Both the position numbers and the translations under genes were made by a program. From assembly GCA_945889005.1 (NCBI GenBank), contig CAMDBI010000005.1, positions 1 to 64,000 of the forward strand: 64,000 nucleotides of DNA, in the 5' to 3' direction. This document shows, one piece after another, positions 2,133 to 55,282 of this stretch (its first letter is position 1; every line of letters begins with the position of its first letter). The stretch is from Bacteroides fragilis. Its GTDB lineage: Bacteria > Bacteroidota > Bacteroidia > Bacteroidales > DTGW01. Under the pieces are notes generated by a model. It was not told the DNA's origin. It made no database searches and saw nothing but the letters and a program-made list of their open reading frames with translations.

Positions 2133-2936
2133 ATGAAAAATCTTCTTTCTTTTCTTTACTTAATGCTATTTTTGCAAGCTGTACATAGTGAAAGCTATAC
2201 CCGTATAGTTTCTTTAGCGCCTTCACTAACCAAACACATTGTACTGCTTAGTTCCGAAAAAAATATAGTGGGGTGCACCAATTATTGCCCCATAAAAAGC
2301 AATACTACTGTTGTTGCCAATGCTCTGAATGTAAATTTTGAACAAATATTAAAGTTAAAGCCCGATATTATTATTACTACCGATTTGACTAGTCCTGAAA
2401 TCATTGCAGGGCTTAAAAAATTAAAACTCAATATTCGTATATTTCCTTTACCCAGCAATTTCGAATTGTTGTGTAAAGAATTCATTGAGGTTGGAACGCT
2501 TGTGGGTCATAAAAAAGAGGCTGAAAGTATTGTAAATAAATCGAAGCAAGATCTTGTAGTGTTCCAACAATCTATAAAGACCGATAAAAAACCTGTTGTC
2601 TTTATCGAAATTGGTGCAAAACCTCTATTTGGTGCCATCGACAATACTTTTATGGCCGATTATATTAGATATGCCGGTGGGTTAAACGCCTTAGCCTCTA
2701 TTAAAAATGGGGCAATTACCCGCGAAAGTGTATTGAAAACCAATCCTGATGCAATTTTTATTGTTACAATGGGTGTTTTGGGCGACGAAGAAAAGAACGT
2801 ATGGTTGGCATACAAAAACATGAAGGCTTCCAAAAACAATTCGATCTTTCTGATCGATCCCGATATGTCGTGTAGTCCTACTCCTCCCGATTTTGTCGAG
2901 ATAACAGGGCAAATGATTAAATGCATTTATAAATAG
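2133..2936 (+). CDS. btuF: Cobalamin ABC transporter, periplasmic binding protein
   Basis: A 267-residue exported protein with a signal peptide at residues 1 to about 19 and no lipobox cysteine. The mature part begins with the class III binding-protein pattern YTRIVSLAPSLT and keeps the two-lobe organisation with a helix linker (PVVFIEIGAKPLFGA near residues 155-170). It would bind corrinoids in the periplasm and deliver them to the permease encoded 10 bases downstream. Family membership (BtuF/FhuD-like) is visible in the sequence. The corrinoid substrate is inferred from the riboswitch and the cob genes; iron-siderophore or heme binding would be the alternative without that context. Confidence 0.85.
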   Translation: MKNLLSFLYLMLFLQAVHSESYTRIVSLAPSLTKHIVLLSSEKNIVGCTNYCPIKSNTTVVANALNVNFEQILKLKPDIIITTDLTSPEIIAGLKKLKLNIRIFPLPSNFELLCKEFIEVGTLVGHKKEAESIVNKSKQDLVVFQQSIKTDKKPVVFIEIGAKPLFGAIDNTFMADYIRYAGGLNALASIKNGAITRESVLKTNPDAIFIVTMGVLGDEEKNVWLAYKNMKASKNNSIFLIDPDMSCSPTPPDFVEITGQMIKCIYK

Positions 2937-2946
2937 CCCTATTGAT

Positions 2947-3954: not shown

Positions 3955-3958
3955 AAGG

Positions 3959-4762
3959 ATGTCTGCATTACTTCAAATAATCGATTTTTCATGTGGATAT
4001 AAATCGGGCTTTTGTCTCGAAAATATAAACTTATCGATAGAGAAAGCTAGTTTTACAGGTATTATTGGTCCCAATGGTTCTGGTAAAACCACTTTATTTA
4101 AAGGCATTTCGGGTATTCTTCCCAAACACAAAGGACAATTGTTGCTCAATAATAAAGATATGGGGCACATGGGCTATAAAGAAAAAGCCCGACATATAGC
4201 TGTTGTAAGCCAGTTTATTGATCCAGTGGCTATTTCGGTCGAAGAATATGTTCTCATGGGTCGATTGCCGTACCAAGCCAATTTTAGTTTTTTCGAATCG
4301 AAGGAAGATATTGACATTGCGCATCATTACATGCAACTTACCGATATTTGGCACATGAAAGATATGATGCTCGACTCTTTAAGTGGAGGCGAGCAACAAA
4401 TGGTTGCTATTGCTCGTGCGCTTACCCAACAGCCCGAATTGCTCTTGCTCGACGAACCAACTGCTCATCTTGACATTACGCACCAATTAAATGTTATGAA
4501 TCTTATTCAGAAATTAAACAACCAGTTGCAATTATCGGTTCTTATGATTATTCACGATTTGAACATGGCAGGGGAGTATTGCAATAATTTAATTTTAATG
4601 AATAATGGGAAAATTCATTGTGAAGGTACGCCCGATGAGGTATTGAACTACTCCAATATAGAAGAGGTTTACAAAACAGTTGTAATTTCGCTAAAAAATC
4701 CACTTTCGGGTCGACCGGTTGTTTTTCCTGTTTCGCAAGATGTGTTGAATAAAAGAATATAA
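3959..4762 (+). CDS. btuD: Cobalamin ABC transporter, ATPase
   Basis: A 267-residue ABC ATPase. The Walker A motif GPNGSGKTT is at residues 37-45, the Q-loop Gln near 85, the signature LSGGEQQ at 141-147, Walker B LLLLDEP at 161-167, and the H-loop His follows in MIIHDLN. It powers the BtuC channel. The frame is open from an ATG at 3935 inside btuC, but the start at 3959 (MSALLQIIDF) is preferred because family members begin at this point and it avoids overlap. No terminator separates it from the cob genes that follow. Confidence 0.93.
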   Translation: MSALLQIIDFSCGYKSGFCLENINLSIEKASFTGIIGPNGSGKTTLFKGISGILPKHKGQLLLNNKDMGHMGYKEKARHIAVVSQFIDPVAISVEEYVLMGRLPYQANFSFFESKEDIDIAHHYMQLTDIWHMKDMMLDSLSGGEQQMVAIARALTQQPELLLLDEPTAHLDITHQLNVMNLIQKLNNQLQLSVLMIIHDLNMAGEYCNNLILMNNGKIHCEGTPDEVLNYSNIEEVYKTVVISLKNPLSGRPVVFPVSQDVLNKRI

Positions 4763-4763
4763 T

Positions 4764-4797
4764 AATTTGCAAATATGCAAATGTGCAAATGAAAATA
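4764..4797. repeat. Short tandem repeat of GCAAATRTGCAAAT type
   Basis: TTTGCAAATATGCAAATGTG continues as a near-8-bp repeat right after the btuD stop. A fragment (AATGTGCAAAT) recurs at about 6425-6435 after cobT. Non-coding. Confidence 0.6.
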
Positions 4798-4850
4798 GAT
4801 GCTATTTATTTTTTTTGTTGTAAAATGGTGAGATGTTATATTAAATTCTA

Positions 4851-5357
4851 ATGGAAATAATCTTTATAACAGGTGGTGCTAGGTCGGGGAAAAGCAAATT
4901 TGCCCAACAATTGGCATTGGAAAAGACCACAAACCCAATATACATAGCCACTGCTCGTCGATGGGACAGCGATTTCGAAAATCGAATAGCCCGTCACCAA
5001 TCGGATAGAGGAAATAATTGGCAAACTATTGAAAAAGAAAAAAATATTAGTGATATTTGTTTAGAGGGAAAAGTTGCAGTTTTGGATTGTATAACCCTTT
5101 GGTTGACCAATATCTTTGCCGATTGTAATTTTGATTTTCAGAAAACTTTGGACGAGGCTATAGCTGAATGGAAAAAATTTTCCGAAAATGAAGGTTTTGT
5201 ATTGGTTGTAAGCAACGAATTGGGTATGGGTGTTCATCCCGAAAACGAAGCTGCCAGAAAGTTTGCCGATATTCAGGGCTGGGTAAACCAACTTATTGCA
5301 AAGAATGCAAATGAAGTATATTTAATGGTATCGGGTATTCCGTTGAAAGTAAAATAA
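4851..5357 (+). CDS. cobU: Adenosylcobinamide kinase / cobinamide-phosphate guanylyltransferase
   Basis: A 168-residue bifunctional enzyme that phosphorylates adenosylcobinamide and then attaches GMP, activating it for nucleotide-loop assembly. The P-loop GGARSGKS is at residues 8-15, followed by the conserved YIATARRWDSDFENRIARHQ region, which contains the His that carries the guanylyl group. VLDCITLWLTN supplies the Walker B-like segment. Length is slightly short of the 180 residues seen in enteric CobU. It sits in the B12 locus before cobT. Confidence 0.95.
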   Translation: MEIIFITGGARSGKSKFAQQLALEKTTNPIYIATARRWDSDFENRIARHQSDRGNNWQTIEKEKNISDICLEGKVAVLDCITLWLTNIFADCNFDFQKTLDEAIAEWKKFSENEGFVLVVSNELGMGVHPENEAARKFADIQGWVNQLIAKNANEVYLMVSGIPLKVK

Positions 5358-5401
5358 TTGATGTTGATAATTCTAACGTTTGTTTTTAAATATCTTATAC
5401 G

Positions 5402-6403
5402 ATGAGCCTACAAGAAGACATACAGAGAAAAATAGATTTAAAAACCAAGCCCCTTGGATCGTTGGGTAAGTTGGAAAAATTGGCAATGAAAATTGCTGAA
5501 ATTCAACAAACACTTTCTCCATCGCTCAAAAATCCGCTTATGTTGGTATTTGCAGCCGATCATGGTCTTACCGACGAAGGAATCAGTCCATTTCCTAAAG
5601 AAGTTACCTACCAAATGGTTATGAACTTTATTAGAGGAGGAGCTGCAATTAGTGTTTTCTGTAAGCATAATGCTATAGCATTGAAGGTGATAGATGCTGG
5701 AGTCGATTTCGATTTTCCGGGCACGAACTCAATTACCAATGCTAAAATTGGTAAGGGAACAAAAAATATTCTTCAAGAACCAGCCATGACAGTTGAAACC
5801 TGTTTAAAAGCCATGAGAAAAGGCCGGGAAATAATGAAATCGGAATTCGATAAAGGTTCCAATATTGTTGGATTTGGAGAAATGGGTATTGGAAATACCT
5901 CATCGGCAGCTCTTCTTATGAGTCGATTTACTGGAATTCCCATTGAACAATGCGTTGGAAGGGGAACAGGCTTAGACGACCAGGGTCTTTTGAAGAAAAA
6001 AGAGATTCTTAAAAAATGTATCGATAAATATTCCTATAAAGATCCAGTTGAGATCTTAGCTACTTTTGGAGGATTCGAAATAGCTATGATGTGTGGCGCT
6101 ATGCTCGAAGCTCAGAAGCTGGGCATGGTTTTGCTTATCGATGGATTTATAGCTACTTCTGCATTGCTTGCCGCCCAAAAGATCGATAATGCAGTGTTGG
6201 ACAATTGTATTTTTTGTCACGAATCGGATGAACAGGGTCATAAGTTGATGCTCGAATATCTTAAAGCTGAACCATTGCTTAATTTGGGAATGCGTTTGGG
6301 CGAAGGTACTGGAGCAGCATTGGCGTATCCAATCGTAAAAGCGGCTGTTGCTTTTCTCAACGAAATGGCAAGTTTCGAAGAAGCTCATGTGAGTAATAAA
6401 TAA
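5402..6403 (+). CDS. cobT: Nicotinate-nucleotide--dimethylbenzimidazole phosphoribosyltransferase
   Basis: A 333-residue enzyme that makes alpha-ribazole phosphate from nicotinate mononucleotide and a lower-ligand base. Family landmarks are visible: KTKPLGSLGKLE near residues 14-25, VFAADHGLTDEGISPFP near 48-64, GEMGIGNTSSAA near 159-170, and RLGEGTGAALA near 298-308 with the catalytic Glu at about 301. It provides the nucleotide that CobS joins to GDP-cobinamide. Its stop codon is the first base triplet of a short intergenic repeat. Confidence 0.95.
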   Translation: MSLQEDIQRKIDLKTKPLGSLGKLEKLAMKIAEIQQTLSPSLKNPLMLVFAADHGLTDEGISPFPKEVTYQMVMNFIRGGAAISVFCKHNAIALKVIDAGVDFDFPGTNSITNAKIGKGTKNILQEPAMTVETCLKAMRKGREIMKSEFDKGSNIVGFGEMGIGNTSSAALLMSRFTGIPIEQCVGRGTGLDDQGLLKKKEILKKCIDKYSYKDPVEILATFGGFEIAMMCGAMLEAQKLGMVLLIDGFIATSALLAAQKIDNAVLDNCIFCHESDEQGHKLMLEYLKAEPLLNLGMRLGEGTGAALAYPIVKAAVAFLNEMASFEEAHVSNK

Positions 6404-6431
6404 TTACTAATGACTAATTACTAATGACAAA
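6401..6431. repeat. Tandem TAATTACTAATGAC repeat after cobT
   Basis: Two copies of a 14-base unit, TAATTACTAATGAC, begin exactly at the cobT stop codon. Related copies occur at 27420-27451 and, inverted, at 44861-44890, each time at a gene's 3' end. Confidence 0.75.
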
Positions 6432-6539
6432 TGTGCAAATAAATCGTTAAAAAGGTTTTGTAGAAGTTATAGAAATTTGCACACTTCGGCTGCATCACTA
6501 CATAGCATTTTCATATTAGTCATTTTCAAATTAATTTCT

Positions 6540-7289
6540 ATGAATACTTTACTTTTTGCAATAAGTTATTTTACCCGAATTCCGGTTCCTAAATGGGTTT
6601 ATGCTACAGAAACACCTGTCGACAAAGCAATACGATATTTGCCACTTATTGGAATACTTGTTGGTAGCTTTGGGGCGCTTATATTGTATTTTTGCCAAAT
6701 GCTAATGAGCTATGAAATGGCAATTCTCTTAAGTATGGTTGCTACAATAATCATTACTGGGGCTTTTCACGAAGATGGATGGGCCGATACCTGCGATGGT
6801 TTTGGCGGAGGAGGGAATAAAAATCAGGTTCTGACAATAATGAAAGATAGCCGGATAGGTACTTATGGTACTATTGGGCTTATAATGGTATTACTTGTAA
6901 AATTTCAATTGCTCATAGCAGTTACCCCCGGTAAAATATATTTTTCGCTCATCGCGGCTCATGCACTTAGTCGTATGTTGCCGGTACTTATGGCTTATAC
7001 ATCGCAATATGCTGGTGTTGAGGATCAATCAAAATCTAAATTTCTGGCGCATAAAATCAATTGGATCGATGTTGCTATAGCAGCTGTCTTTGCATTGTTG
7101 CCCTTTTATTTTCTTTCGTGGTCTAAGTTCTTTCTATCTATTCTCCTTTTGGCACTTGTGTTTTTGGGAATGAGATGGTTTAGCCATCGACGAATTGGTG
7201 GATTCACAGGCGATGTACTTGGTGCTATGCAACAAGTAGCTGAAATTGTTATATATATATCGGTTGTATATATTCAGGACAATTACTAA
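6540..7289 (+). CDS. cobS: Adenosylcobinamide-GDP ribazoletransferase (cobalamin synthase)
   Basis: A 249-residue inner-membrane enzyme that joins alpha-ribazole (phosphate) to adenosylcobinamide-GDP, the final assembly step. The family motif HEDGWADTCDGFGGG lies at residues 77-91, followed by MKDSRIGTYG, and there are five or six hydrophobic helices. The frame is open from 6477, but the start at 6540 (MNTLLFAISYFTRIPVP) matches the usual CobS N terminus. Its stop overlaps the cobC start by one base (TAATG), so the two are translationally coupled. Confidence 0.94.
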   Translation: MNTLLFAISYFTRIPVPKWVYATETPVDKAIRYLPLIGILVGSFGALILYFCQMLMSYEMAILLSMVATIIITGAFHEDGWADTCDGFGGGGNKNQVLTIMKDSRIGTYGTIGLIMVLLVKFQLLIAVTPGKIYFSLIAAHALSRMLPVLMAYTSQYAGVEDQSKSKFLAHKINWIDVAIAAVFALLPFYFLSWSKFFLSILLLALVFLGMRWFSHRRIGGFTGDVLGAMQQVAEIVIYISVVYIQDNY

Positions 7290-7825
7290 TGAATCTTTGG
7301 GCTATTCGTCATACTAAAACCGAAGTTCAAGAAGGCATTTGTTATGGTCAGTCAGATGTAGGTCTCGCCGAAACATCTATCTACGATTTAGAAAAGGCTG
7401 TAGCCTCTTTCAATAATCAGAAATTTGATATCATTTATTCGAGTCCCCTTATCCGGTGTGCTATATTGGCTCAACATATTGCTCAAGGACAAGAAATAAT
7501 CTACGATTCAAGGTTGAAAGAATTGAATTTTGGTCAATGGGAATTGATTGCATGGAATGATATCTTCAATACCCCGTATGGCAAACATTGGATGGATAAC
7601 TATATCGAAACACCTTGTCCGGATGGTGAATCTTATATGCAGCTTTTCTTTCGAATTCAGGATTTTTATAACGAAATTTTATTGAAACACACACAAGATA
7701 ATGTTTTACTTGTTACTCATTCGGGCTGTATCATTGCTTTTCATTCTTTACTCCTGAAAATTACTCCCGAAGTTGCTTTTAAATTTCATCGCCCCGATTT
7801 TGGACAAATTATTAAACTCCTTTAA
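7289..7825 (+). CDS. cobC: Alpha-ribazole phosphatase (histidine phosphatase family)
   Basis: A 178-residue phosphoglycerate-mutase-like phosphatase. The phosphoacceptor histidine is in the N-terminal motif IRHTK (His8), the second catalytic His is in VTHSG near residue 148, and the conserved Arg/Glu positions are in SSPLIRC and LKELNFGQWE. It is predicted to remove the 5' phosphate from alpha-ribazole phosphate or cobalamin phosphate. It is coupled to cobS by a one-base overlap and closes the riboswitch-controlled gene set. General sugar-phosphate phosphatase activity is less likely given the context. Confidence 0.88.
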   Translation: MNLWAIRHTKTEVQEGICYGQSDVGLAETSIYDLEKAVASFNNQKFDIIYSSPLIRCAILAQHIAQGQEIIYDSRLKELNFGQWELIAWNDIFNTPYGKHWMDNYIETPCPDGESYMQLFFRIQDFYNEILLKHTQDNVLLVTHSGCIIAFHSLLLKITPEVAFKFHRPDFGQIIKLL

Positions 7826-9106: not shown

Positions 9107-9206
9107 AATAAACCCCTATCCCTTTAAAAGGGGCAATAACAGATTTGTGCTTTTATAAACCACTGCTCTGTTAGCCCTCCTTTTTAAGGAGGGTTGGGAG
9201 GTTATT
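9107..9206. repeat. MITE-like inverted-repeat element, copy 1
   Basis: A roughly 100-bp block starts AATAAACCCCTATCCC and ends GGGTTGGGAGGTTATT, whose reverse complement AATAACCTCCCAACCC nearly matches the start. Inside are CCTTTAAAAGG and CCCTCCTTTTTAAGGAGGG hairpins. A second copy with the same plan is at 49570-49656. There is no coding capacity. Confidence 0.7.
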
Positions 9207-39660: not shown

Positions 39661-40500
39661 ATGCCCTACATAGAAGTAAACATAAGCATTACACCTTTTT
39701 CTGAAGAAAATTGCGATATAGTTACAGCTTACTTAGCCGATTTGCCTTTCGAATCATTTTCAGCTGAAAACGATTGTTTGAAAGCTTATATTCGCAAAGA
39801 ATCTTTTGATAACGAGTCGATTAAAGATTGTTTAGATCAGGTTAAAGAAATGGCGATCAATTGCTCGTATACATTTACCGAAATAGCCGATGTAAACTGG
39901 AATAGCGAATGGGAGAAAAACTTTGACCCAATATTGGTCGACAATATATGTATGGTGCGCGCTCCATTTCACTCACCTGTAGAGGGTTTGAAGTACGACA
40001 TAGTGATAGAACCTAAGATGTCGTTCGGAACTGGGCATCATGGCACTACCTACCAAATGATAGACGAAGCTTTGCGAACAGATTTTGCAAACAAAGTGGT
40101 TATAGATATGGGTTGCGGTACAGGAGTATTGGCAATATTGGCTGTGAAAATGGGTGCAAAATCTGCTATCGCTATAGATATTGATCAGTGGGCTTATGAC
40201 AACACCATAGAAAATTGCTTGAGAAACAATGTTACTCAAATTAAAGTATTGTTGGGCGATGTAAGTCAAGCCAACGGTTCAACCTGCGATTTAATGTTTG
40301 CAAACATTAACCGTAATGTGCTTTTGGCAGATATGGTTACTTACAAAAACAATGTTATAAAAGGAGGAGTGCTACTTTTAAGTGGTTTCTACACCGAAGA
40401 CCTCGATATGATTAGACAATCTGCAGAAACTAACGGATTTGTTTTTAAAAAACATACTGTCATGAACAATTGGGTAATGGCTAAATTTGTGAGAGGATAG
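39661..40500 (+). CDS. prmA: Ribosomal protein L11 methyltransferase
   Basis: A 279-residue SAM-dependent enzyme. The N-terminal substrate-recognition domain is about residues 1-85. PKMSFGTGHHGTTYQMIDEA near 118-137 is the PrmA signature, VVIDMGCGTGVLAILAVKMG near 146-165 the SAM motif I, and CDLMFANINRNVLLADM near 209-225 the catalytic loop with the Asn-Ile-Asn motif. It trimethylates lysines and the N terminus of L11. It lies 23 bases after the exonuclease gene and ends the run. Confidence 0.95.
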   Translation: MPYIEVNISITPFSEENCDIVTAYLADLPFESFSAENDCLKAYIRKESFDNESIKDCLDQVKEMAINCSYTFTEIADVNWNSEWEKNFDPILVDNICMVRAPFHSPVEGLKYDIVIEPKMSFGTGHHGTTYQMIDEALRTDFANKVVIDMGCGTGVLAILAVKMGAKSAIAIDIDQWAYDNTIENCLRNNVTQIKVLLGDVSQANGSTCDLMFANINRNVLLADMVTYKNNVIKGGVLLLSGFYTEDLDMIRQSAETNGFVFKKHTVMNNWVMAKFVRG

Positions 40501-40618: not shown

Positions 40619-41659
40619 GTGCATACTAAGTGTATCTATTTGTTTATTCTCCTTCTTTTTACTAGGTTTTGTTTTACTCAGGATTTTGTAAAAGATTCTA
40701 CGGTTATAAATTTTGGCAACAATACTATTCGACCTGTTTTATATTCGATCGATTCGGTAATTGACCAAAGAACTGAACTATCGTCGAACGTGTTGCGTAT
40801 CTCTGAGAAGAAACAATATCGGTATATTCCTGTAGACTATTATTTTGTAACTCAACAGTCAATAGCATCTAATATTAAGCAATTAATTATCGATGATACA
40901 TTGTCGGACGAGTCGATAAATTTAGTATTAAAGAAATTTGAAATTAACCACCGTGGGGGAATTCTTCCAGCATCGGTATTATCTGCACAAATTTCAATCT
41001 ATAAAGGGAAAATAAATAGTCGTAAAACCCTTGATGGGACACTCATATATGAGACAAGTGGGAAAAAACCCAATAAGAGAAACTCTCAAGAATGTTACGA
41101 AAATCTTATTGATTCATGGCGTTCGGATTTTATTATCGATATAAAAAGGTTACAATCGAATCATTCCGACAGTATTTATCATTACAGAATAGGCAAAGAA
41201 GATGCGAAAACACGTCTTTATTGTTCTTCAGCGTTTTATTATGGTATCGACTGGTGTATGCTTGATGTTAATCTCGGATTTTACGAACCCGAAGCATCGA
41301 AGCGATTTGTTAGGCATTCACATTTTTTTAGATATAGAAACGAGAAACGGTTTGAATCTGTCGCTATGGGCTCAAATGCAAGCCATTTCTATTGTCGTAT
41401 AAACAAAGACTTTATATCTGAAATTGAAGGAAGATTTTGTGTTGGCTTTAACCGTTGGCGCGATATGGATACCTTTAAGCATAAATTGTATGATATTGCC
41501 AATGTCAATGCAAGTATTAAAACTGGAATATTGTATTCGCCTTTCGACAAAAAAGGTATTTCAATGGGAGGAGGACTGCTGCTTGATAGTTATTATATTT
41601 ACTCATTAAATATACAGCTCAAACCTGCTGTATATTTAATATTTGGAATAAGCCTTTAA
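40619..41659 (+). CDS. Exported protein of unknown function
   Basis: A 346-residue protein that starts with GTG and a signal peptide (residues 1 to about 20, ending RFCFTQ). I do not recognise the family. The middle holds polar, beta-rich sequence with an ordered motif YYGIDWCMLDVNLGFYEPEA near residues 208-227. The end contains GISMGGGLLLDSYYIYSLNI and stops in FGISL, which looks like terminal strands of an outer-membrane barrel. It is followed nine bases later by the TonB receptor and then the DUF4249 lipoprotein, so it is probably the first gene of that transcript. Confidence 0.7.
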   Translation: MHTKCIYLFILLLFTRFCFTQDFVKDSTVINFGNNTIRPVLYSIDSVIDQRTELSSNVLRISEKKQYRYIPVDYYFVTQQSIASNIKQLIIDDTLSDESINLVLKKFEINHRGGILPASVLSAQISIYKGKINSRKTLDGTLIYETSGKKPNKRNSQECYENLIDSWRSDFIIDIKRLQSNHSDSIYHYRIGKEDAKTRLYCSSAFYYGIDWCMLDVNLGFYEPEASKRFVRHSHFFRYRNEKRFESVAMGSNASHFYCRINKDFISEIEGRFCVGFNRWRDMDTFKHKLYDIANVNASIKTGILYSPFDKKGISMGGGLLLDSYYIYSLNIQLKPAVYLIFGISL

Positions 41660-41668
41660 ACCCGTGAA

Positions 41669-44062
41669 ATGAGATTGAAAAACAACATAATAGTCCCAAT
41701 AATATTGTTTGTAATTTTAGGTTTTAATATACAATCGATATCGGTAATTGCTCAAAATTACACCTTATCGGGTTATGTTGCAGATAGTCTTAGTGGTGAA
41801 ACCATTATTGGAGTTACCGTTGCTCTCGATGGTACGAGCAAATCAACAGTGACCGATTCAAAAGGCTTTTATCGTTTAAGTGGTGTCAAAGCCGGAAACA
41901 ATCGTCTTTTTTTTTCGCATATTACATACAAGAGCACATCAATAAGTGTAAGAGTTAGTAACGATTTGCTTTTGAAAGAAATTTTGCTTGAGGAAGATAA
42001 GATATCGATAAAAGAAATAGCTATTGTCGGTGTTGGCAACAAAAGGTTGGGCGATAGGGAAGTAGAAACGAGTTTGATAGGTTTGTCGTTAAAAGCAATA
42101 AAAACCATACCTGGCGCTGGTGGCGATGTTTTTAAAGCAATCAAATACCTTCCGGGAATCGAAGGTGGTTCGCCTTTTAGTCCATTGGTCTCGGTTCGTG
42201 GAGGCGACCCTTCGGAAAATCTAATATCGCTTGATGGAGTAACAATTTACAACCCTTATCATGTTGTTAGTTCGGCGGGTGCATTTAATACCAATTCGAT
42301 AAAAGATGTAGAAATAATGCTCGGGGGTTTTGGTGCCGAGTATGGCGGACGCAATTCTTCTATTATTAATATAGTTACAAAAGAAGGTTCAAATAAAGGC
42401 TTTCATGGCGAGTTTGAACCCTCATCGAACAATTTTACTGGTTATTGCGAATTTCCGGTATCCGAAAATTCAAAAATGACCCTTGCCGGACGGTTTTTCT
42501 ACCCCATTATCAGCAATTTTGCATTGTATTCAAACAATTGGTTTTACGATTTTAACCTTTCGTATGTATATAAAATAAATGAAAGAAATAAAATTTCAAT
42601 GAAGTATTTTACTTCGCGCGATAATCAAGATTTTAGTATTAAAGAAATATACCAGTACATAGGCAATATGATTAGCGATGAAGATGTTAGTCAAGTCTTT
42701 AATAATTTCGATATTAGTAAGACCAACAAATGGAAAAACAATGCCGTAACTCTTATTTGTCAAAGTATTATAACTCCCCGTCTTATTTTCGATAGTCAGG
42801 TATATGGCTCATTTCACTCGTCGGAAAATGCTTCGGGTTTCAGCTTCAAAATACACATTAATGATTCTTTTCCCGATATTAAATATGAGGCCAATACACG
42901 TTTTTCGAGTAGTATCGACGACATTTGCTTCAAATCGTCGCTCAATTGGAAACCAACCGAATGGAATAGTATAAAATTTGGATTTGAAGCCAATAATTAC
43001 AAATTCTCAAATTCGGCAAGTATTAGTAATTTTGAAAAAGGACAAGAAAATCGCAAACCCTTGCTATTTGCTTTTTTTGTTGAAGATAAATTAAAACTAG
43101 GATCGCTTATCGTAAGACCTGGCGTGCGAATGAGCCGTTATAGCCTTACCGACAATTATTATATAGAACCTCGAGTCAATGCTGTATTGAATCTTTCTTG
43201 GAATTGGGAGCTTAAGGCCGCTTGGGGTCAATACTACCAGTACATAACAAGTATGAACACCAGCGAATATGAGTTTTCGCAAATGCTCGATTACTACTAT
43301 CCGCTTCAGAACCTAAAACCAGCTAGCTCTGAGCATTTTATTGTTGGTTTTGGAAAGAAATTAAATCAATCCTTATCGGTTTCTTTCGATGCTTACAAAA
43401 AAAACATAAAACGGATTTATACATTTAACCTCACTCAAAGCGAAATAGAAGCATATAGCTTTGCCGATAAATTGCAACAAGGTCATGGCGAAGCGAATGG
43501 TATAGAAATATTGACAAAAGGGCAATACCAAAAACTTTCGGGTTGGACATCATTAGGCATTGGGCGCACCACGAGAAGCTACCCTCAATATATGAATGGT
43601 AAAGATTTTTTGTCGGACTACGACAAAACATTTACATTTAAAGGTGTTTGCAATTATCAACTGTCCGAAAACCTATCGTATAGTGCTGGTTGGTTGGTAT
43701 TGTCGGGGCGCCCGATTACAATTTCGACTACTTCGCAACAATATTTTTCGTACGACCCCAATGCCAACAATCTTGCTATGTCGCCTCAATATGTTACTCG
43801 CGAAAAAAACAATGCCCGATTGACCATGGTAATTCAGCTCGATATTGGTTTCAAGAAACAGTTGCGCGAAGGGTTTGGAGCTAAACTTAAGAATTGGTTA
43901 CATGCCAAAGAATCGTATGTTACCGGAAGCTTGCAGAACCTAACTTTTTTCAGACGTAACATAGATTTTTATATGTATGAACCATCTTCGAATTATTATT
44001 TGCCAATAGGTGTTATGAATTTATATCCTGTTGCTGTAATTGGTTATTCAATAAAGTTTTAG
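41669..44062 (+). CDS. TonB-dependent receptor with N-terminal carboxypeptidase-regulatory-like domain
   Basis: A 797-residue outer-membrane transporter. The signal peptide ends near residue 29 (SVIAQN). A CarboxypepD-reg-like domain spans about 31-115 (SGYVADSLSGETIIGVTVAL). The plug domain (about 140-240) has GGDVFKAIKYLPGIEG, VSVRGGDPSENLISLDGVTI and GGFGAEYGGRNSSIINIVT. The rest is a 22-strand barrel ending in an aromatic-flanked strand (AVIGYSIKF). The substrate is unknown. Its partner is the DUF4249 lipoprotein four bases downstream, the arrangement in which the lipoprotein serves as a surface lid or binding subunit. Confidence 0.9.
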   Translation: MRLKNNIIVPIILFVILGFNIQSISVIAQNYTLSGYVADSLSGETIIGVTVALDGTSKSTVTDSKGFYRLSGVKAGNNRLFFSHITYKSTSISVRVSNDLLLKEILLEEDKISIKEIAIVGVGNKRLGDREVETSLIGLSLKAIKTIPGAGGDVFKAIKYLPGIEGGSPFSPLVSVRGGDPSENLISLDGVTIYNPYHVVSSAGAFNTNSIKDVEIMLGGFGAEYGGRNSSIINIVTKEGSNKGFHGEFEPSSNNFTGYCEFPVSENSKMTLAGRFFYPIISNFALYSNNWFYDFNLSYVYKINERNKISMKYFTSRDNQDFSIKEIYQYIGNMISDEDVSQVFNNFDISKTNKWKNNAVTLICQSIITPRLIFDSQVYGSFHSSENASGFSFKIHINDSFPDIKYEANTRFSSSIDDICFKSSLNWKPTEWNSIKFGFEANNYKFSNSASISNFEKGQENRKPLLFAFFVEDKLKLGSLIVRPGVRMSRYSLTDNYYIEPRVNAVLNLSWNWELKAAWGQYYQYITSMNTSEYEFSQMLDYYYPLQNLKPASSEHFIVGFGKKLNQSLSVSFDAYKKNIKRIYTFNLTQSEIEAYSFADKLQQGHGEANGIEILTKGQYQKLSGWTSLGIGRTTRSYPQYMNGKDFLSDYDKTFTFKGVCNYQLSENLSYSAGWLVLSGRPITISTTSQQYFSYDPNANNLAMSPQYVTREKNNARLTMVIQLDIGFKKQLREGFGAKLKNWLHAKESYVTGSLQNLTFFRRNIDFYMYEPSSNYYLPIGVMNLYPVAVIGYSIKF

Positions 44063-44065
44063 ACA

Positions 44066-44878
44066 ATGAGAAAAAATAAATTTTTAATAACATATTTTGT
44101 TAGCATATTTCTACTAATAGTATCGTGCGACGAAGCTATTGATTATTATTATGGTACACCAATGCAGCCCATATTTATGGGCGACGACCAATATGAACGT
44201 AAGTTGAATATTTTTGGCATAATACAACCCGATCAAAAATCGTTTATTCATGTTCTGCAAACCACTCCAACAAAAGGCGATACTATTACAAATTTATATA
44301 TTGAAAATGCCAATGTTGAGGTTGCAGAATACGATACAATAGGGCAAATATTAAAATCGAATTTTTTATTTTCTTATCCAGATTCGGGCAGTATTTCAAT
44401 GATACCCCAATACAGTTGTAAAAATATTAAACCTCAGGCTCATAAAAAATACACATTCAATTGTACTTTCGGCACATTTCCAGTTGTCTATGCCGAAACA
44501 GTAGTACCCGAAGTGCCCCAGTTGGTAGCAAACTCATTGCAAGTTTCCACAAAAAGGGTAAGTTTTAAAATAAGTCGCGACACACTCGCTTATATGTACG
44601 ATGTATATTTAATCAGCGACAATAATTTTTACTCGAAACGTATTGTAGCAAGCGATTCAAGCGAATTGTCAGTAGAATTAAATCCAAGCAATTCGTCTAA
44701 TTGGAAAATATTAAAAATATTCGCTTACGATAAGAATTTGGCTTTGTATTTTTCAACATCATCCAATTCGTTTTATAGTTTCAATACCTATCGTCCACCT
44801 ATTACAACATTAACAGGCGGTTTTGGTTGTATTGGATCTATTAATTGCAACTTCTTTGAATTAGTCATTAGTAATTAG
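44066..44878 (+). CDS. DUF4249-family lipoprotein
   Basis: A 270-residue lipoprotein with lipobox ending at Cys21 (LLIVSCDEA). The order of segments (NIFGIIQPDQKSFIHVLQTT, later YTFNCTFGTFPVVYAETVVP) fits the DUF4249 family, which typically sits next to a TonB receptor. The last codons and the stop lie inside a TTAGTCATTAGTAATTAG repeat, so the C-terminal LVISN is encoded by repeat DNA. This suggests the original 3' end has been replaced or extended by an interspersed repeat. Confidence 0.8.
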   Translation: MRKNKFLITYFVSIFLLIVSCDEAIDYYYGTPMQPIFMGDDQYERKLNIFGIIQPDQKSFIHVLQTTPTKGDTITNLYIENANVEVAEYDTIGQILKSNFLFSYPDSGSISMIPQYSCKNIKPQAHKKYTFNCTFGTFPVVYAETVVPEVPQLVANSLQVSTKRVSFKISRDTLAYMYDVYLISDNNFYSKRIVASDSSELSVELNPSNSSNWKILKIFAYDKNLALYFSTSSNSFYSFNTYRPPITTLTGGFGCIGSINCNFFELVISN

Positions 44879-44979: not shown

Positions 44980-47900
44980 ATGAAAAAGTTACTGATTATT
45001 TTATCATTGTTTATATTATTGAATGTATATGGCAACCGCTCGAACCAACAGTTTAAAAAGTTTAGTGGCGATATTGCATTGTTCAATTCAGAAATTATGC
45101 AATTTATCGGCTATTCGGGCGACGAAGAGCTGAACCAATTTTTAACTTTTTTCAAGCTCAAATGGGATTCGCTCGAATATACACCCGATCAACAAAAACA
45201 AATAATTACAATTTCTAACTGCCTTATCGAAAAAAAGATAAGACCAACTCCAGATTATATTAGTTTTATTAAAGCACTTTTTTACTTCAGCGATAGTAAA
45301 CACGATAAAGAGAGTTTCCAGCAATGGCTCAATGGAGTAGAAAAATATTGTAGCCGGAAAAAAGCTAGGATTTCAATATTTGTACAATTGTGTACAAGTG
45401 CACTTAACCTTTTAGACAAACAATTGCTTTTCGAATCGAGCTCAACACAATGGAAAACAAGTAATAATCAGTTTAAGTTTATAACAACAAATGAGTTAAA
45501 AGTAGAAATTAATAATACGGATCTTATTTGTTTTGCCAAACACGATAGTATCAAGATTTTTAATACTTCAGGTTTTTTCTATCCCGAACAAATGATTTGG
45601 AGAGGAGAGAAAGGTTTGGTTACCTGGGAGCGAAGTAATTACGATAGAAATACTGTAAATGCTAAATTATATACATACAAAATTGAACTTAACAAATCGA
45701 CCTACAAAGCCGATTCGGTTGAATTTACAAACACCAATTACTTTAAATATAAATTGTTGGGAGTGCTTGAAGATAATGTAATGCAAATTATGACTGCAAC
45801 TAGCGCTACATTTCCAAAATTTGATTCGTATCAAAAAACTTTTGAGTTGAAAAACCTATACAAGAATGTCGATTACAAAGGTGGTTTTTCTATGCAAGGA
45901 TCAAAGTTATTGGGAAAAGGTAATGATGAAGCTTTGGCAACCTTGTTTTTTTACCGCAACGATACACTTCGACTCAAAGCATTTTCAAAATATTTGATTT
46001 TTACCCCTCAGAAAATTTCAGGGAATAACACAGGTGCTAGTATTTATCTTGAAAACGATTCAATTTATCATGCCAACCTATTGTTTACCTATTCGGTTCA
46101 AAATAGGGAAGTTACTTTATTGAAGAGCGAAGAGTTTACTGCCCAATGTCCCTTTTTAAATTCGTATCATAAAATAGATATGAACTTTGAGCAATTGGTT
46201 TGGCGAATCAACGATCCGATACTTTATATGAATTCGACACCCGGTTCTGCACAAGGGAAAGCAACGTTTGAGTCGGTCAACTTTTTTAATTATTCCAACT
46301 ATCTCGATATAATGAAGTACGACGAGCAGCATCCCTTGTTTCTGCTAAAGAGATACGCGAAAAAGATCAATTTGCAGAAGTTTTATGCATCGTCGTATGC
46401 TGAATCGCTGGGTTTGCCCATCGAACGTATACAGGAAACTTTATTTAGACTTGCTGTTGAAGGTTATATTTTTTACGATGCTAAAAATGACCTAATAGAG
46501 CTGAAAACTAAAATGTACAATAACCTCGATGCAAGTGTTGGTCGTATCGATTACGATGTGATAAAGTTCAATTCGGTAACCGATATGCCTTTGGAAAATG
46601 CTAGCCTTGATTTGCGGAATCTTGATTTGCGAATCAATGGTATACCTTTTATTCAGGTGAGCGACTCGCAAAATGTTGTTTTTTACCCGAAAAACAATCA
46701 AATAATATTGAAGCACAATCGTAATTTCCAGTTCGACGGTACAGTGCAAGCAGGTTTATTTACATTTTATGGAAAAAAATATATATTTAACTACGATACC
46801 TTTAAAATGACGCTAAACGATGTCGATTCAATTAGGATTAAAGTAATTACCGGGTATGACAATTTTATGAAACCAATTACTCACGATGTTAGCAATGTAA
46901 TCAATAAACTTACCGGCGAACTTTTTATCGACAAAAACGACAATAAATCGGGACGAATCAACTACTCACAATATCCATTGTTTAGATCAAAGGGAAACTC
47001 CTATGTTTACTACGACGATCCCAATGTATTTAAAGGAGTATATAATCGAAGCAGTTTCTATTACAAAGTTTTTCCTTTTGAAATGGATAGTTTGGACAAT
47101 TTCAAAAAAGAATCGATGAGTTTGAAAGGCGAATTGACATCGGCCGATATATTTCCACCCATTAATCAGGCATTGATTTTACAGCCCGACTTTTCATTAG
47201 GTTTTTATCACACAACGCCCGGCGAAGGTTTGTCGACTTATTTGGGTAAAGGAAAGTTTTTCGATGTTGTACAACTTTCTAATGGAGGCCTAGTCGGTCA
47301 TGGACGGCTCAATTATTTGACTTCTATGACGAAAGCAAAAGATATTTACTTTTTCCCCGACTCGGCAAATTCGCAAGCCGAGGATTTTACTATTGCTTCG
47401 TCGGGAGCAAGCTATTCCGATGTAATAGGCAAGGACATTTATTTACATTGGATGCCCAAAAAAGACCATTTATATTCGAAAAGTACAAAAACGCCTTTCG
47501 ATTTCTTTGGTCAGCAAGGATATTTGACTGGAGCTCTCGACCTATCGCCTGGCAAATTGACCGGTTCCGGATTTATGAATTTGATAGCGGCTAATGCCAG
47601 TTCGAAACTTTTTGTTTTTGGCAATAAGGTAGTTCAGGCCGATACCATGTCGTTTCAGCTAAAATCGCTGCATGGAGAGGGTTTTACTGTGCTAACAAAC
47701 AATGTTAAAGCAAAAATCGACTACAATTCTCGTATCGGTAACTTTAAAGCAAATACCGATTCAACAAGTGTCGAATTTCCGGAAAACAAGTACATATCGT
47801 ACTTACAAACCTTTGTATGGCGAATGGATAAAAAAGAACTCGAGATGGGTTCGTCGCAAATACACAAACCAAGTGGCGATGGAGCTCAATATGGCTTTCA

Positions 47901-49536
47901 GGATGAAGTTCTTAAAGGAGCAAAGTATATATCGACCAAGAAAGGACAAGATTCATTATATTTTATTTCGCCAGTTGCCATTTACGACTATGAAAAGAAT
48001 TTGTTGAAAGCCTCACAAGTTGAATATGTAGATGTAGCCGATGCCCGAATCTTGCCGAAATCGAAACAATTAACGATTGAATCCAATGCAGTAATGCAAA
48101 CGATTGGCCAATGTGATATAATGGCAAACAGAAGTACCCGTTTTCATAAAATACATACAGCTAGAGCAACCATTGCTGGTCGATACGAATATAGTGCCAG
48201 CGGTCGATACGACTATAAAGACATAAACAATCAAATTCAAACTATCGATTTTACTGAGATTAAAGTAGATACTTCGCGACAAACAATTGCCAATGGAGTT
48301 ATTACTGAACCCGATAATTTTACACTCAGTCCAGAGTTTTCGTATCAGGGAAAGGTTAAATTGCTGGGAGCTCAGAAATATCTCAATTTCAATGGAGCTA
48401 CTCGCCTCAATTTTATGTGTCCAAACTATAGCTCTACCTGGACAAAGTTTGATACTATTATAAACCCCAACAATATCGAAATACCCATTAGACAGCGTAT
48501 TTTCGATATAAACTTGAACAGAATTTATGCAGGAACTTATCTTACAGTAGACTCAATACATGTATACTCCAATTTTCTTGCTCAACGAAAAGATTATAAC
48601 GACGGATACATTGTTACTGCCGGTGGTCAAATAAGCTACAACAGCGATAGTGCTACATTCTTGATAGGACAAAGAGATAAACGAGAAAACCGCAATGTGT
48701 ATGGGGGGTTATTGAGCATCAATACCAAAAGTTGTATTCATAGAGGAGAAGGACCTGTCGATCTAAATATCGATTGTGGTTTGTTTAAACTTGCAAGTTC
48801 GGGGAGTTTAAGTCACGACCTAAACAAAGACAAAGCTACACTTGACATTATGCTTTCGCTCGACTTTAAGCTCAACGATCAGTCCTTAGCCATTTTTGCT
48901 CACGATCTCGATAGCTTGGGCAAAGACTCGGTCGATATTACAAAAGGTGCTATTCGTAAAAATTATACCAACCTTATTGGACAAGATGCATCAAATATCT
49001 ATTATACAGCCTTCGAGAAAGAAGGTCGACCCGCGGTAATGCCTGTAGAGCTTAATAAAACCATTATTATTACCAGTGTAAAGCTTTGGTGGGACGATGT
49101 TTCGAACTCGTACCGTTCTATAGGTAAAATAGGTATAGGCATTGCCAATGGTAAGCAAGTAAATGCCCAATTCGACGGGTTTATGGAAATATCGAGAAAA
49201 CGATCGGGCGATTTGCTCGACCTTTACCTGAAAATCGACGACAAAAACTGGTATTATTTCGGATATACACGTGGCGTAATGCAAGTGTTGTCGTCGAACA
49301 AGAACTTTATAGCTCCTATAGCAGCCATGAAACCATCGCAACGTATGACTTTGGCAAAAGGCAATCAGCAATCGTACACCTATTTGCCTTCGCCCGAGCG
49401 AAAGAAAAGTCTTTTTTTAAAACGTGCCGAAAAAATGGAATCGGTCGAGCAAGATGAACCAGAACCTATTGAACTGCCTCAAGATTCAGTTGATCAACCC
49501 ACTATTGTTGTGCCAGATTCATTAAATAAAAAGTAA
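44980..49536 (+). CDS. Very large exported protein of unknown function (1518 residues)
   Basis: Signal peptide at residues 1 to about 18 (LFILLNVYGN). Residues about 20-170 are helical. The rest is largely short beta strands with recurring aromatic patterns such as FEQLVWRINDP near 406 and QTFVWRMDKKELEMG near 946. A helical insertion LPIERIQETLFRLAVEGYIF near 483-502 looks like a small winged-helix segment. The C-terminal 50 residues are charged and Pro-rich (EPEPIELPQDSVDQPTIVVP), with no T9SS sorting domain and no obvious terminal barrel strand. It may be a periplasmic or surface scaffold. It stands alone after the receptor cluster. I can assign no family; similar giant proteins occur in this phylum. 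Confidence 0.75.
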   Translation: MKKLLIILSLFILLNVYGNRSNQQFKKFSGDIALFNSEIMQFIGYSGDEELNQFLTFFKLKWDSLEYTPDQQKQIITISNCLIEKKIRPTPDYISFIKALFYFSDSKHDKESFQQWLNGVEKYCSRKKARISIFVQLCTSALNLLDKQLLFESSSTQWKTSNNQFKFITTNELKVEINNTDLICFAKHDSIKIFNTSGFFYPEQMIWRGEKGLVTWERSNYDRNTVNAKLYTYKIELNKSTYKADSVEFTNTNYFKYKLLGVLEDNVMQIMTATSATFPKFDSYQKTFELKNLYKNVDYKGGFSMQGSKLLGKGNDEALATLFFYRNDTLRLKAFSKYLIFTPQKISGNNTGASIYLENDSIYHANLLFTYSVQNREVTLLKSEEFTAQCPFLNSYHKIDMNFEQLVWRINDPILYMNSTPGSAQGKATFESVNFFNYSNYLDIMKYDEQHPLFLLKRYAKKINLQKFYASSYAESLGLPIERIQETLFRLAVEGYIFYDAKNDLIELKTKMYNNLDASVGRIDYDVIKFNSVTDMPLENASLDLRNLDLRINGIPFIQVSDSQNVVFYPKNNQIILKHNRNFQFDGTVQAGLFTFYGKKYIFNYDTFKMTLNDVDSIRIKVITGYDNFMKPITHDVSNVINKLTGELFIDKNDNKSGRINYSQYPLFRSKGNSYVYYDDPNVFKGVYNRSSFYYKVFPFEMDSLDNFKKESMSLKGELTSADIFPPINQALILQPDFSLGFYHTTPGEGLSTYLGKGKFFDVVQLSNGGLVGHGRLNYLTSMTKAKDIYFFPDSANSQAEDFTIASSGASYSDVIGKDIYLHWMPKKDHLYSKSTKTPFDFFGQQGYLTGALDLSPGKLTGSGFMNLIAANASSKLFVFGNKVVQADTMSFQLKSLHGEGFTVLTNNVKAKIDYNSRIGNFKANTDSTSVEFPENKYISYLQTFVWRMDKKELEMGSSQIHKPSGDGAQYGFQDEVLKGAKYISTKKGQDSLYFISPVAIYDYEKNLLKASQVEYVDVADARILPKSKQLTIESNAVMQTIGQCDIMANRSTRFHKIHTARATIAGRYEYSASGRYDYKDINNQIQTIDFTEIKVDTSRQTIANGVITEPDNFTLSPEFSYQGKVKLLGAQKYLNFNGATRLNFMCPNYSSTWTKFDTIINPNNIEIPIRQRIFDINLNRIYAGTYLTVDSIHVYSNFLAQRKDYNDGYIVTAGGQISYNSDSATFLIGQRDKRENRNVYGGLLSINTKSCIHRGEGPVDLNIDCGLFKLASSGSLSHDLNKDKATLDIMLSLDFKLNDQSLAIFAHDLDSLGKDSVDITKGAIRKNYTNLIGQDASNIYYTAFEKEGRPAVMPVELNKTIIITSVKLWWDDVSNSYRSIGKIGIGIANGKQVNAQFDGFMEISRKRSGDLLDLYLKIDDKNWYYFGYTRGVMQVLSSNKNFIAPIAAMKPSQRMTLAKGNQQSYTYLPSPERKKSLFLKRAEKMESVEQDEPEPIELPQDSVDQPTIVVPDSLNKK

Positions 49537-49569: not shown

Positions 49570-49656
49570 AATAAACCCCAACCCCTAAAAAAGGGGCAAA
49601 AACAGAGTGGCGAAGTTGTTTTCCCTCCTTCTTAAGGAGGGGTAGGGGTGGTTAAT
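49570..49656. repeat. MITE-like inverted-repeat element, copy 2
   Basis: It starts ATAAACCCCAACCCCT and ends AGGGGTAGGGGTGGTTAA, so the ends are near-inverted. It contains AAGGGGCAAAAACAGA and CCCTCCTTCTTAAGGAGGGG, matching the plan of the element at 9107-9206. Non-coding. Confidence 0.7.
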
Positions 49657-49702: not shown

Positions 49703-50197
49703 ATGAGGCAAATAGGCATACTATCCGATACCCACGGCACATTTGACGAATCGCTCGAGAAATTCTTTGAACCCTGCGACGAGTTGTGGCATGCCGGCGA
49801 TATTGGAAATCTCGAAATAGCTCATAAAATGGAGAAATTTAAACTTCTAAAAGCAGTATCGGGCAATATCGACGATTATAAAGTACGAAGTATTTATAAG
49901 CCCTTGCTAAGGTTCAATTGCGAGGATGTTGATGTAATGATTACCCATATTGGCGGCTATCCCGGAAGATGGGAGCCGGAAATTAAAAAAATATTTGAGT
50001 TGAATGCCCCAAAACTTTTTATTTGCGGTCATTCGCATATTTGTAAAGTTATTTTTGATAAACAATACAACATGCTGCATATAAACCCGGGAGCAGCCGG
50101 TTGTTCGGGGTTTCATGCAGTAAGAACCGCCATTAGGTTGAAAATCGATAACAAACAGATAAAAGATGTGGAAGTTTGGGAAAAAAAAAGAAATTGA
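49703..50197 (+). CDS. YfcE/MJ0936-type metallophosphoesterase
   Basis: A 164-residue calcineurin-like phosphoesterase. The metal-binding motifs are in order: SDTHG at residues 8-12, ELWHAGDIGN near 27-36, SGNID near 53-57, ITHIGGYPG near 80-88 and CGHSHICKV near 111-119. It is the short single-domain form that hydrolyses phosphodiesters; the natural substrate is unknown. It is followed by a small exported protein and rsmE in one run. Confidence 0.92.
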   Translation: MRQIGILSDTHGTFDESLEKFFEPCDELWHAGDIGNLEIAHKMEKFKLLKAVSGNIDDYKVRSIYKPLLRFNCEDVDVMITHIGGYPGRWEPEIKKIFELNAPKLFICGHSHICKVIFDKQYNMLHINPGAAGCSGFHAVRTAIRLKIDNKQIKDVEVWEKKRN

Positions 50198-50252
50198 TTT
50201 GAGCAACTACAGAGTTGAAAATGCTTGCATGGAGCAAATAGGAAGAGTTAAA

Positions 50253-50675
50253 ATGAAACTTATAATAACTTCATTTCTTTGTTTATTCACTATGAATATG
50301 AATGCGCAACTTGACTTCGAATTGATCGAAGTGTTGAATAAACAAGCTGAAAAAAATGAACATACTGTATTGAGCGATTTCTATTGCCAGCTACAAAAAG
50401 AACCCAATTTGCAAGAGTCCAATACAATTACGTTGCGAAGGGGACAAAAATATATTTTTTATTTCAAAGGATCAAAAGCAAACTCAACCGATGCTGAAAT
50501 AAAAATTTATGCACCAAACAACAAGCAATCCTTTTCGAAAGCTCAAATAAAGAACAACGAAATAGGCGAACTTCGGTTGTTGAGCTCTATTACTCAAAAT
50601 TTTATTATTGAAATAACCAAACCCAAAGCCGGAATATTCAATGGCTTGGTATTAGTAACATTAGATAGCAATTGA
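50253..50675 (+). CDS. Small exported protein of unknown function
   Basis: A 140-residue protein with a signal peptide (residues 1 to about 16, ending NMNAQL). The frame opens at 50166, overlapping the phosphoesterase, but the start at 50253 gives a proper signal sequence. The mature part is beta-rich with GQKYIFYFKGSKANSTDAEI near 63-82 and ends in a strand (GLVLVTLD). No family recognised. Its stop overlaps the start region of rsmE. Confidence 0.65.
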   Translation: MKLIITSFLCLFTMNMNAQLDFELIEVLNKQAEKNEHTVLSDFYCQLQKEPNLQESNTITLRRGQKYIFYFKGSKANSTDAEIKIYAPNNKQSFSKAQIKNNEIGELRLLSSITQNFIIEITKPKAGIFNGLVLVTLDSN

Positions 50676-53743: not shown

Positions 53744-55282
53744 ATGAAATATCTATTAGTCCTCATATTTTTTATTGTTTCTGTAAAAGTTTTATTGGCT
53801 TCACCCATAAGCCCTGAAATTAAATATATTTCTACCGACCCCATAACCGGTAATATTCTTATCAGATGGAAGAATATAACTACCAATGGCGTTGAGAAAT
53901 TTATCATTTATAAGTACGAATTAAATGGGCTTGCCGATCAGTGGAATGTATGGGATACGGTTCCAGTAGTAAAAAATGTGCCTTTATTAGATTCTTTTAT
54001 TATTCACGACAAGGATTTGGTCAAACAAATGAATTTCTATAGAATCGAAATTGTTGATATTTCTGGTAATGTCAGTAAAAATATATCTCACGATAAGCCC
54101 TTTTTGAATGCAGCGTCCAATATTATACTTCGTGCAACAATCGACACATGTTTACGTAAGGTACGCTTTAATTGGAGTCAGTATTATGGATATGGGCATT
54201 CTAATGCTGTTTTAGAAATACCTTATTATTTGTATAAAATAAATGAAAAAGGGGAGGAGCGTGTTTTGCCAGATCCTGTCACTTCGCTTATTTACGATAC
54301 ATTTAGAGTGGTCGAAAATCTCGACATTAACAAAAGTATAAAATATGTTGTAAAAGCAGAGCAGAAGAATTTTTTCCCTCCATATATCAATTCGTCAAAT
54401 TTAATTGATATTTATCTGCCCTTTAACGATACTATGCAGATAATAAGTTTGAATAGTCAAATAAGTCAAAATCAAAAGGTGCAATTAACGTATTCATTAT
54501 CAAAGGAAGTTGCAAATGCCGATTTTTTATTGATGAGATTCAACGAAACTTCAAACATATTTGATAGTATACAGAAATTATCAAAAATTACGGGAAAGAT
54601 TATACATTTTGAAGTTGACGAAAATCAGCAAGTGAAAAATATTTACAAAGCTGCTTTGTTAAATACATGTGGAAAACCATCTGTTTTTTCTACTGAAAGC
54701 CAGAATATTCAATTGACAATAAATAGAATCAACGACATGGTTCAACTTCAATGGAATACTTACAACAAGTTTGAAGGTAATACTAACAGATACGATGTTT
54801 ATAGAAGTGTATCTAGTCAGAATGAATTTATTAGCGCTATACCTCCCATTCAAAATCAATATTTCGACAATATTGCCAATATATCTGATGTTTCGAATAC
54901 CGGGGTTTTATGTTATGATGTTGTAGCTTACGAAAGCAACAATCCAAATAATATAAATGCCTATGTACAATCGGCAACTGAATGTATTACAATTGAAAAT
55001 CTATTTAAATTGCTTCCCACAGTTTTTACTCCAAATGGAGATGGTAAAAACGATACATTTATACCATTATTGAAATTTATACCCAAAGACTTTTATATGA
55101 TTGTAACCGACAGAGCCGGAATTAAAGTGTTTGAAACAACAAAAGTTGAAGAAGCATGGAATGGTCACTACAAAAATGGAGCAAAAGCAAAAGCGGGGGC
55201 TTATATTTTTTATATAAAAGTTAAAAGCTTCAACAATCAAACTATAGAAAGAACTGGAATAGTCAATATAGTGTATCCCTAA
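53744..55282 (+). CDS. T9SS type B cargo protein with fibronectin-like modules
   Basis: A 512-residue secreted protein. The signal peptide ends near residue 19 (VLLASP). The body consists of several beta-sandwich modules with fibronectin-like edges (GNILIRWKNIT near 37-47, MVQLQWNTYNKFEG near 332-345). Residues about 424-512 form the gliding-motility-associated type B sorting domain: TVFTPNGDGKNDTFIPL, YMIVTDRAGIKVFET and KAGAYIFYIKVKS. This tail directs export through the type IX system and attachment to the surface. No catalytic motif is seen; adhesion is the likely role. Confidence 0.88.
   Translation: MKYLLVLIFFIVSVKVLLASPISPEIKYISTDPITGNILIRWKNITTNGVEKFIIYKYELNGLADQWNVWDTVPVVKNVPLLDSFIIHDKDLVKQMNFYRIEIVDISGNVSKNISHDKPFLNAASNIILRATIDTCLRKVRFNWSQYYGYGHSNAVLEIPYYLYKINEKGEERVLPDPVTSLIYDTFRVVENLDINKSIKYVVKAEQKNFFPPYINSSNLIDIYLPFNDTMQIISLNSQISQNQKVQLTYSLSKEVANADFLLMRFNETSNIFDSIQKLSKITGKIIHFEVDENQQVKNIYKAALLNTCGKPSVFSTESQNIQLTINRINDMVQLQWNTYNKFEGNTNRYDVYRSVSSQNEFISAIPPIQNQYFDNIANISDVSNTGVLCYDVVAYESNNPNNINAYVQSATECITIENLFKLLPTVFTPNGDGKNDTFIPLLKFIPKDFYMIVTDRAGIKVFETTKVEEAWNGHYKNGAKAKAGAYIFYIKVKSFNNQTIERTGIVNIVYP

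Follow-up and report, generated by a model that had tools for sequence, protein, structure and literature searches.

A 1518-residue exported protein of Bacteroidota with predicted structural resemblance to lipopolysaccharide-transport proteins

The gene and the anatomy of its product

The window analysed here is a stretch of 64,000 nucleotides from Bacteroides fragilis (assembly GCA_945889005.1, 3.26 Mb in 62 contigs), lying on the 126-kb contig CAMDBI010000005.1, and our subject is one gene on its forward strand, which an earlier note, made from the letters alone, had described as encoding an exported protein of no recognised family. The open reading frame (44980-49536, +; 1518 residues) has exactly the boundaries, size and position given there. 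Judged by its conservation it is a real gene and not a chance open reading frame, because 24 relatives align with it nearly end to end at 30-44 % identity and 46 of the 60 genomes of near relatives examined carry it. The parts of the gene are as follows.

44980..49536, +, whole gene, exported giant beta-taco protein of 1518 residues (open reading frame and homologues)
44980..45039, +, signal peptide, residues 1-20, without lipobox (25-sequence alignment; model helix 2-20)
45073..45420, +, helical head, residues 32-147 (AlphaFold2 model m30f73bd79808; predicted local distance difference test, pLDDT, mostly >90)
45424..46284, +, first beta-taco stretch, residues 149-435, LptC/LptA-like (VIA-align; LptC 4b54, LptA 2r1a)
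46288..46554, +, inserted winged-helix domain, residues 437-525 (MntR/OhrR/MepR-type fold matches)
46564..48867, +, second, long beta stretch, residues 529-1296 (AlphaFold2 model m50afa8f002ec, mean pLDDT 89.8)
47413..48180, +, section of the second stretch, approximately residues 812-1067, matched directly to the LptD/LptC/LptA fold (VIA-align)
48418..48420, +, Cys1147, invariant in the 25-member alignment (A1), co-occurring with Cys1252
48733..48735, +, Cys1252, partner of Cys1147 in a possible disulfide (alignments)
48877..49452, +, C-terminal alpha/beta domain, residues ~1300-1491, with a conserved WYYFxY motif (alignment and AlphaFold2 model)
49453..49533, +, tail of variable sequence, acidic and with Pro (poor alignment; pLDDT low at model residues 1091-1101)

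Most of the anatomy read from the letters is borne out. The N-termini of the 25 aligned sequences carry a hydrophobic stretch, usually with a Gln after it and with no lipobox, which agrees with the signal peptide; the helical head is found in the model, and the body is beta-rich, with 92 predicted strands and 677 strand residues in the whole protein (both models). The VWR and aromatic patterns had been called recurring, a fair but weak description, as VWR occurs only twice (VWRIND and VWRMDK) and IWR once, all of them on conserved aromatic positions. What had been noted as a small helical insertion is present and is specifically a winged-helix domain, the stretch of which aligns in all 10 distant homologues examined. 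The tail, described as charged and Pro-rich, is acidic and does contain Pro, but is variable and of low confidence after approximately residue 1490. A search for internal repeats returned one weak pair (residues ~540-580 against 1001-1040, probability 61 %), which is insufficient to define a repeat unit.

Cys1252 shares the invariance of Cys1147 in the 25-member alignment, and both are conserved at 94 % in a larger alignment of 68 members. Among the 10 distant homologues, both cysteines are present in one (locus L110) and both are absent in the other nine. This joint presence and absence would fit a disulfide, which we regard as possible, although a single split between clades would give the same pattern.

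Fold recognition from structure models

Two AlphaFold2 models were considered, an N model of residues 1-560 and a C model of residues 400-1500, built from input alignments of 71 and 68 sequences. The N model reached a pLDDT of 92.6 and a predicted template modelling score (pTM) of 0.79, and the C model a pLDDT of 89.8. In Foldseek searches with the C model, all seven PDB matches at E<=0.001 were entries of LptD (one of them, 4q35, is titled only 'a membrane protein' and we take it to be LptD), and for the N model ranks 1-12 were LptD entries, none of them at E<=0.001. VIA-align, for which the stated typical best Z of models without a clear match is 7-8, pointed to the same group of proteins: among the 50 matches listed for each model, rows 1-15 for the C model were LptD, LptC, LptA or LptH, and rows 1-8 for the N model were likewise Lpt proteins (LptA/C/D/H). 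These matches have Z values of 8.7-10.8, above the 7-8 level, and they recur on separate stretches of the chain. For the C model they include LptD 9rpr (Z 10.8, 142 residues aligned, root-mean-square deviation (rmsd) 3.3), LptC 6mit (Z 10.6, 137 aligned, rmsd 2.9), LptC 4b54 (Z 10.1, 119 aligned, rmsd 2.6) and LptA 2r1a (Z 9.8, 121 aligned, rmsd 3.7). For the N model they include LptC 6mjp (Z 10.8, 130 aligned, rmsd 2.8), with residues 294-434 matching LptA 2r1a (Z 9.4, 120 aligned, rmsd 3.5) and residues 156-288 matching LptC 4b54 (Z 9.2, 117 aligned, rmsd 3.6).

According to the models, the fold of lipopolysaccharide (LPS) transport proteins is predicted at residues ~156-435 and ~812-1067, with antiparallel beta structure between and beyond these stretches, so that the Lpt beta-taco has direct support from modelled structure over about half of the body. 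In LptA, LptC and LptD, two facing antiparallel sheets form a hydrophobic groove that shields the acyl chains of LPS. The strands of our protein are amphipathic, the alternation of hydrophobicity having a mean of 1.96 as compared to 1.32 +/- 0.13 when residues were shuffled within strands (52 strands, each of >=6 residues). The structure prediction and fold search proposed in the earlier note, with LptD/OstA-like or AsmA-like bridges among the candidate folds, have thus given the LptD/LptC/LptA fold. No TamB or AsmA structure was present among the fold matches listed by Foldseek and VIA-align, which does not exclude a TamB-type fold.

The resemblance to LptA, LptC and the periplasmic part of LptD lies in the antiparallel beta-taco, these proteins being the best fold matches of several stretches, but the differences are considerable. 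Our protein is a single chain of many times their length, with an inserted winged helix, a helical head and an alpha/beta domain at the C-terminus in addition, and it has neither a sequence relationship to OstA_2 (hhalign) nor a match to an LptD family. With regard to a C-terminal outer-membrane beta-barrel as in LptD, the C model predicts mixed alpha/beta structure ending in a helix. The other VIA-align rows listed for the N model are mostly winged-helix proteins (Z ~7.4-8.5) on residues 437-525, and the MntR/OhrR/MepR-type matches among them (Z 8.4-8.5, 67-82 aligned) are at the edge of the 7-8 level of the tool, although many winged-helix matches have Foldseek probabilities of 0.93-1.00. 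The fold is that of MarR/MntR-type winged helices, but here it stands inside an exported beta protein, and DNA binding is for this reason not expected.

Sequence-family searches

Searches of Pfam, NCBIfam, PHROGs and PADLOC gave no family match for the protein, with nothing beyond chance, and no PDB chain matched it by sequence. In Pfam and NCBIfam the 25 family members gave only scattered weak matches; a sialidase match (E 0.13) was rejected as chance, as were scattered single-member Pfam matches, the best at E 0.006. The OstA_2 profile (PF13100) matched none of the 25 members at E<=1, the Pfam profiles of AsmA and TamB (DUF490) matched none, and their Pfam and NCBIfam matches included neither an LptD family nor a type IX secretion system (T9SS) C-terminal sorting domain, the latter as the earlier note had it. 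By sequence, the protein belongs to none of the families tested, and its own family is unnamed in the libraries searched. Among open-licence PMC papers, searched by title and opening lines of the abstract, no description of the family was found, which is weak evidence of absence. The statement that it has no recognised family therefore holds at the level of sequence, for Pfam, NCBIfam, PHROGs, PADLOC and PDB chains, but the Lpt fold was matched; the confident match to a characterised family that would have spoken against the earlier description was found for the fold only and does not extend to family membership.

Distribution and gene neighbourhood

The gene was found in 204 of 295 genomes sampled from the order (about two thirds) and in 11 of 296 sampled across the phylum; the conservation check suggested earlier thus gave a wide distribution in the order, with alignment over nearly the full length. 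Holders, among 78 loci, include Alkaliflexus, Alkalitalea, Geofilum, Natronoflexus, Labilibacter and many metagenome-assembled genomes of Bacteroidales and Flavobacteriales. Together with the window these make a set of 79 loci, of which 76 have an upstream and 66 a downstream open reading frame, the identities of the neighbours being checked by Pfam on representatives.

The next upstream gene is prmA in 48 and tpiA in 17 of the 76 loci (together 65), the other 11 including the window and fragmentary or rearranged contigs. Downstream, among 66 loci, plsY (15), a YfcE-type phosphoesterase (13) and rsmE (7) were found. In 6 of 10 phylum-level homologues that come from other families (L109, L111, L114, L115, L116 and L118), the gene immediately upstream is prmA-like. 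Pairwise distances of the gene track those of prmA with r 0.69 over 49 loci and those of tpiA with r 0.72 over 51 loci, the permuted maximum being 0.12. Vertical inheritance behind prmA or tpiA is accordingly predicted; such correlations are expected of vertical descent and are alone no proof of a functional link. The gene had been called isolated, which is true locally but not for its relatives, and since fold and conserved position are both informative, this description was too pessimistic, as was the view that nothing in the sequence tells of its role. In the window, the region upstream is arranged as follows.

39661..40500, +, prmA, in relatives usually the next gene upstream (Pfam PrmA, E 2.6e-44)
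40619..44878, +, three genes (346 residues, TonB receptor, 270 residues) between prmA and the gene (open reading frames and Pfam), a place that is empty in the 48 prmA-adjacent loci

The receptor of this TonB cassette has CarboxypepD_reg and Plug domains, and the 270-residue protein has a lipobox-like N-terminus and no Pfam match. In some Flavobacteriales-type loci (L052 and L050), the gene, or the neighbour downstream of it, is followed by one for a protein of 1400-2100 residues that by eye resembles tetratricopeptide repeats.

Envelope machinery in the same genome and in relatives

The same genome encodes a separate OstA_2 protein of 504 residues, open frames for LptD_2 (911 residues) and TamB (1495 residues), and genes of the LptF/LptG family. 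As the genome has its own OstA_2, LptD, LptF/G and TamB, the 1518-residue protein is an additional beta-taco protein. Among the 60 relatives, OstA_2 is found in 55, LptF/G in 57 and SprA_N in 59, and none of these tracks the giant gene. Replacement of the ordinary OstA is rejected in view of the presence of OstA_2 in 55 relatives and in this genome. As SprA_N occurs with or without the gene, the presence of the gene cannot be attributed to T9SS. Additional copies of LptF/G as partners were also considered, and no clear excess was seen by eye in the genomes that hold the gene. Counted by eye, the longer of the LptF/G open frames is >600 residues in 8 of 13 genomes without the giant gene and in 3 of ~40 with it, a comparison made with no control for phylogeny and with frames that take in upstream extension and are in some cases truncated.

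Proposed role and alternative explanations

On balance we think it probable, leaning on the structure models, that the protein works like an Lpt-type lipid bridge, that is, as a soluble, one-piece, periplasm-spanning beta-groove for lipids or lipid-anchored cargo. Export by the Sec pathway is predicted, and the lack of a lipobox or T9SS tail was counted in favour of a soluble, periplasmic protein; LptA is presumably likewise exported without a lipobox. Were the beta-taco unbroken through the whole body, its ~85 strands, at two per rung of 0.48 nm, would give a length of very roughly 15-20 nm, an upper-end figure, since each split strand enters the count double. Such a length is of the order of the width of the periplasm, for which reason a soluble bridge in a single piece, docked at each end, would be the most likely role. 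One molecule could then do the job of a chain of LptA, with a lipid (LPS, another glycolipid or phospholipid) or lipid-anchored cargo sliding between inner and outer membrane, and with the helical head and the C-terminal alpha/beta domain docking on membrane partners. The winged helix may act as a protein-binding hinge or gate, as DNA is out of reach there. Cargo, partners and direction of transport are inferred.

We would further put forward, tentatively and with some doubt, an additional trans-envelope lipid conduit beside Lpt and the translocation and assembly module (TAM): a single-chain, periplasm-spanning tube of Lpt fold with a winged-helix gate, delivering a specific envelope lipid or surface lipoprotein, ancestral in part of Bacteroidota and lost in others. 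If the one-piece bridge is true, it would be a further route for the movement of lipids or lipoproteins between the membranes of diderm bacteria, and the winged helix would be an uncommon case of a DNA-binding fold put to another use, inside a groove of the periplasm. For this conserved envelope protein of ~1500 residues, which about two thirds of the order's sampled genomes encode, the libraries searched contain no family entry, and studies of how the Bacteroidota envelope is supplied would gain a concrete gene to work on.

A number of observations weigh against the proposed bridge. Amphipathic strands are also found in ordinary closed sandwiches. The overall shape of the C model is uncertain on account of its pTM of 0.50, residues 529-811 and 1068-1296 showed little or no direct fold match in the C-model searches, and the whole-model template modelling scores of Foldseek for LptD are low (0.08-0.19), because the alignment covers local stretches only. 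In hhalign, the family compared with an alignment of 31 OstA rows at a probability of <=0.7 %, similar to those of 25 neighbour-gene families used as controls (0.0-2.4 %), so that sequence homology to OstA_2 is undetectable. An Lpt set and TamB are already encoded in the genome, and no partner of the protein was identified. Since 91 of the 295 order genomes and 285 of the 296 phylum genomes lack the gene, it is not needed for the outer membrane as such.

The same mechanism could be served by a divergent phospholipid carrier of AsmA/TamB type, with another family and partner (TamL-like), a possibility that we consider rather unlikely. AsmA-like proteins such as TamB, YhdP and YdbH are long one-chain beta-tacos of similar length with a proposed periplasm span; they share a fold resembling the Lpt bridge, and Flavobacterium johnsoniae, another species of Bacteroidota, is reported to have several of them (passages of PMC8593681 and PMC12045153 for the fold, of PMC12045153 for the species). 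The length of our protein is near that of the TamB open frame of the genome; however, that TamB is itself a distinct protein, none of the 25 members has a Pfam match to TamB or AsmA, the best solved folds listed are LptD, LptC and LptA, and the hydrophobic N-terminus resembles a cleaved signal peptide in place of an obvious inner-membrane anchor.

The beta-taco might also carry no lipid and serve as a scaffold or chaperone for proteins, such as outer-membrane lipoproteins or parts of T9SS or surface structures. According to PMC11885536, it is unexplained how lipoproteins reach the surface in Bacteroidota, and spirochaetes use an LptD homologue for this, which makes lipoprotein handling a live alternative, and the winged helix and helical head could be taken to resemble protein-binding modules. 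We nevertheless judge a scaffold unlikely, as the occurrence of SprA_N regardless of the gene suggests no special link to T9SS, and the absence of the gene from many Bacteroidota genomes argues against a general lipoprotein-transport machine. An exported structural or adhesin-like beta protein with no transport function would also be large and beta-rich with a variable acidic tail, but it is very unlikely in view of conservation over the whole length in a housekeeping neighbourhood, the lack of a T9SS tail or lipobox for reaching the surface, and fold matches that are lipid-transport proteins. We thus retain the Lpt-type lipid bridge as the preferred explanation.

Other features of the window

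Just downstream of the gene, at 49575-49655, lies a palindromic intergenic element, CCCTCCTTNNNAAGGAGGG, which is found again at 9174-9194; there are 4 strand matches at these 2 places in the window, none being expected by chance. Further on, at 50166-50675, the phosphoesterase gene and rsmE flank a gene for a probably exported protein of 169 residues with no Pfam match. The product of 53744-55282 carries a CHU_C domain at its C-terminus (Pfam, E 3e-13) and is a likely cargo of T9SS. Positions 2133-7825 hold a run of genes for cobalamin uptake and salvage, recognised by eye from the translations, with a binding protein, permease, ATPase and cobU-, cobT-, cobS- and phosphatase-like genes.

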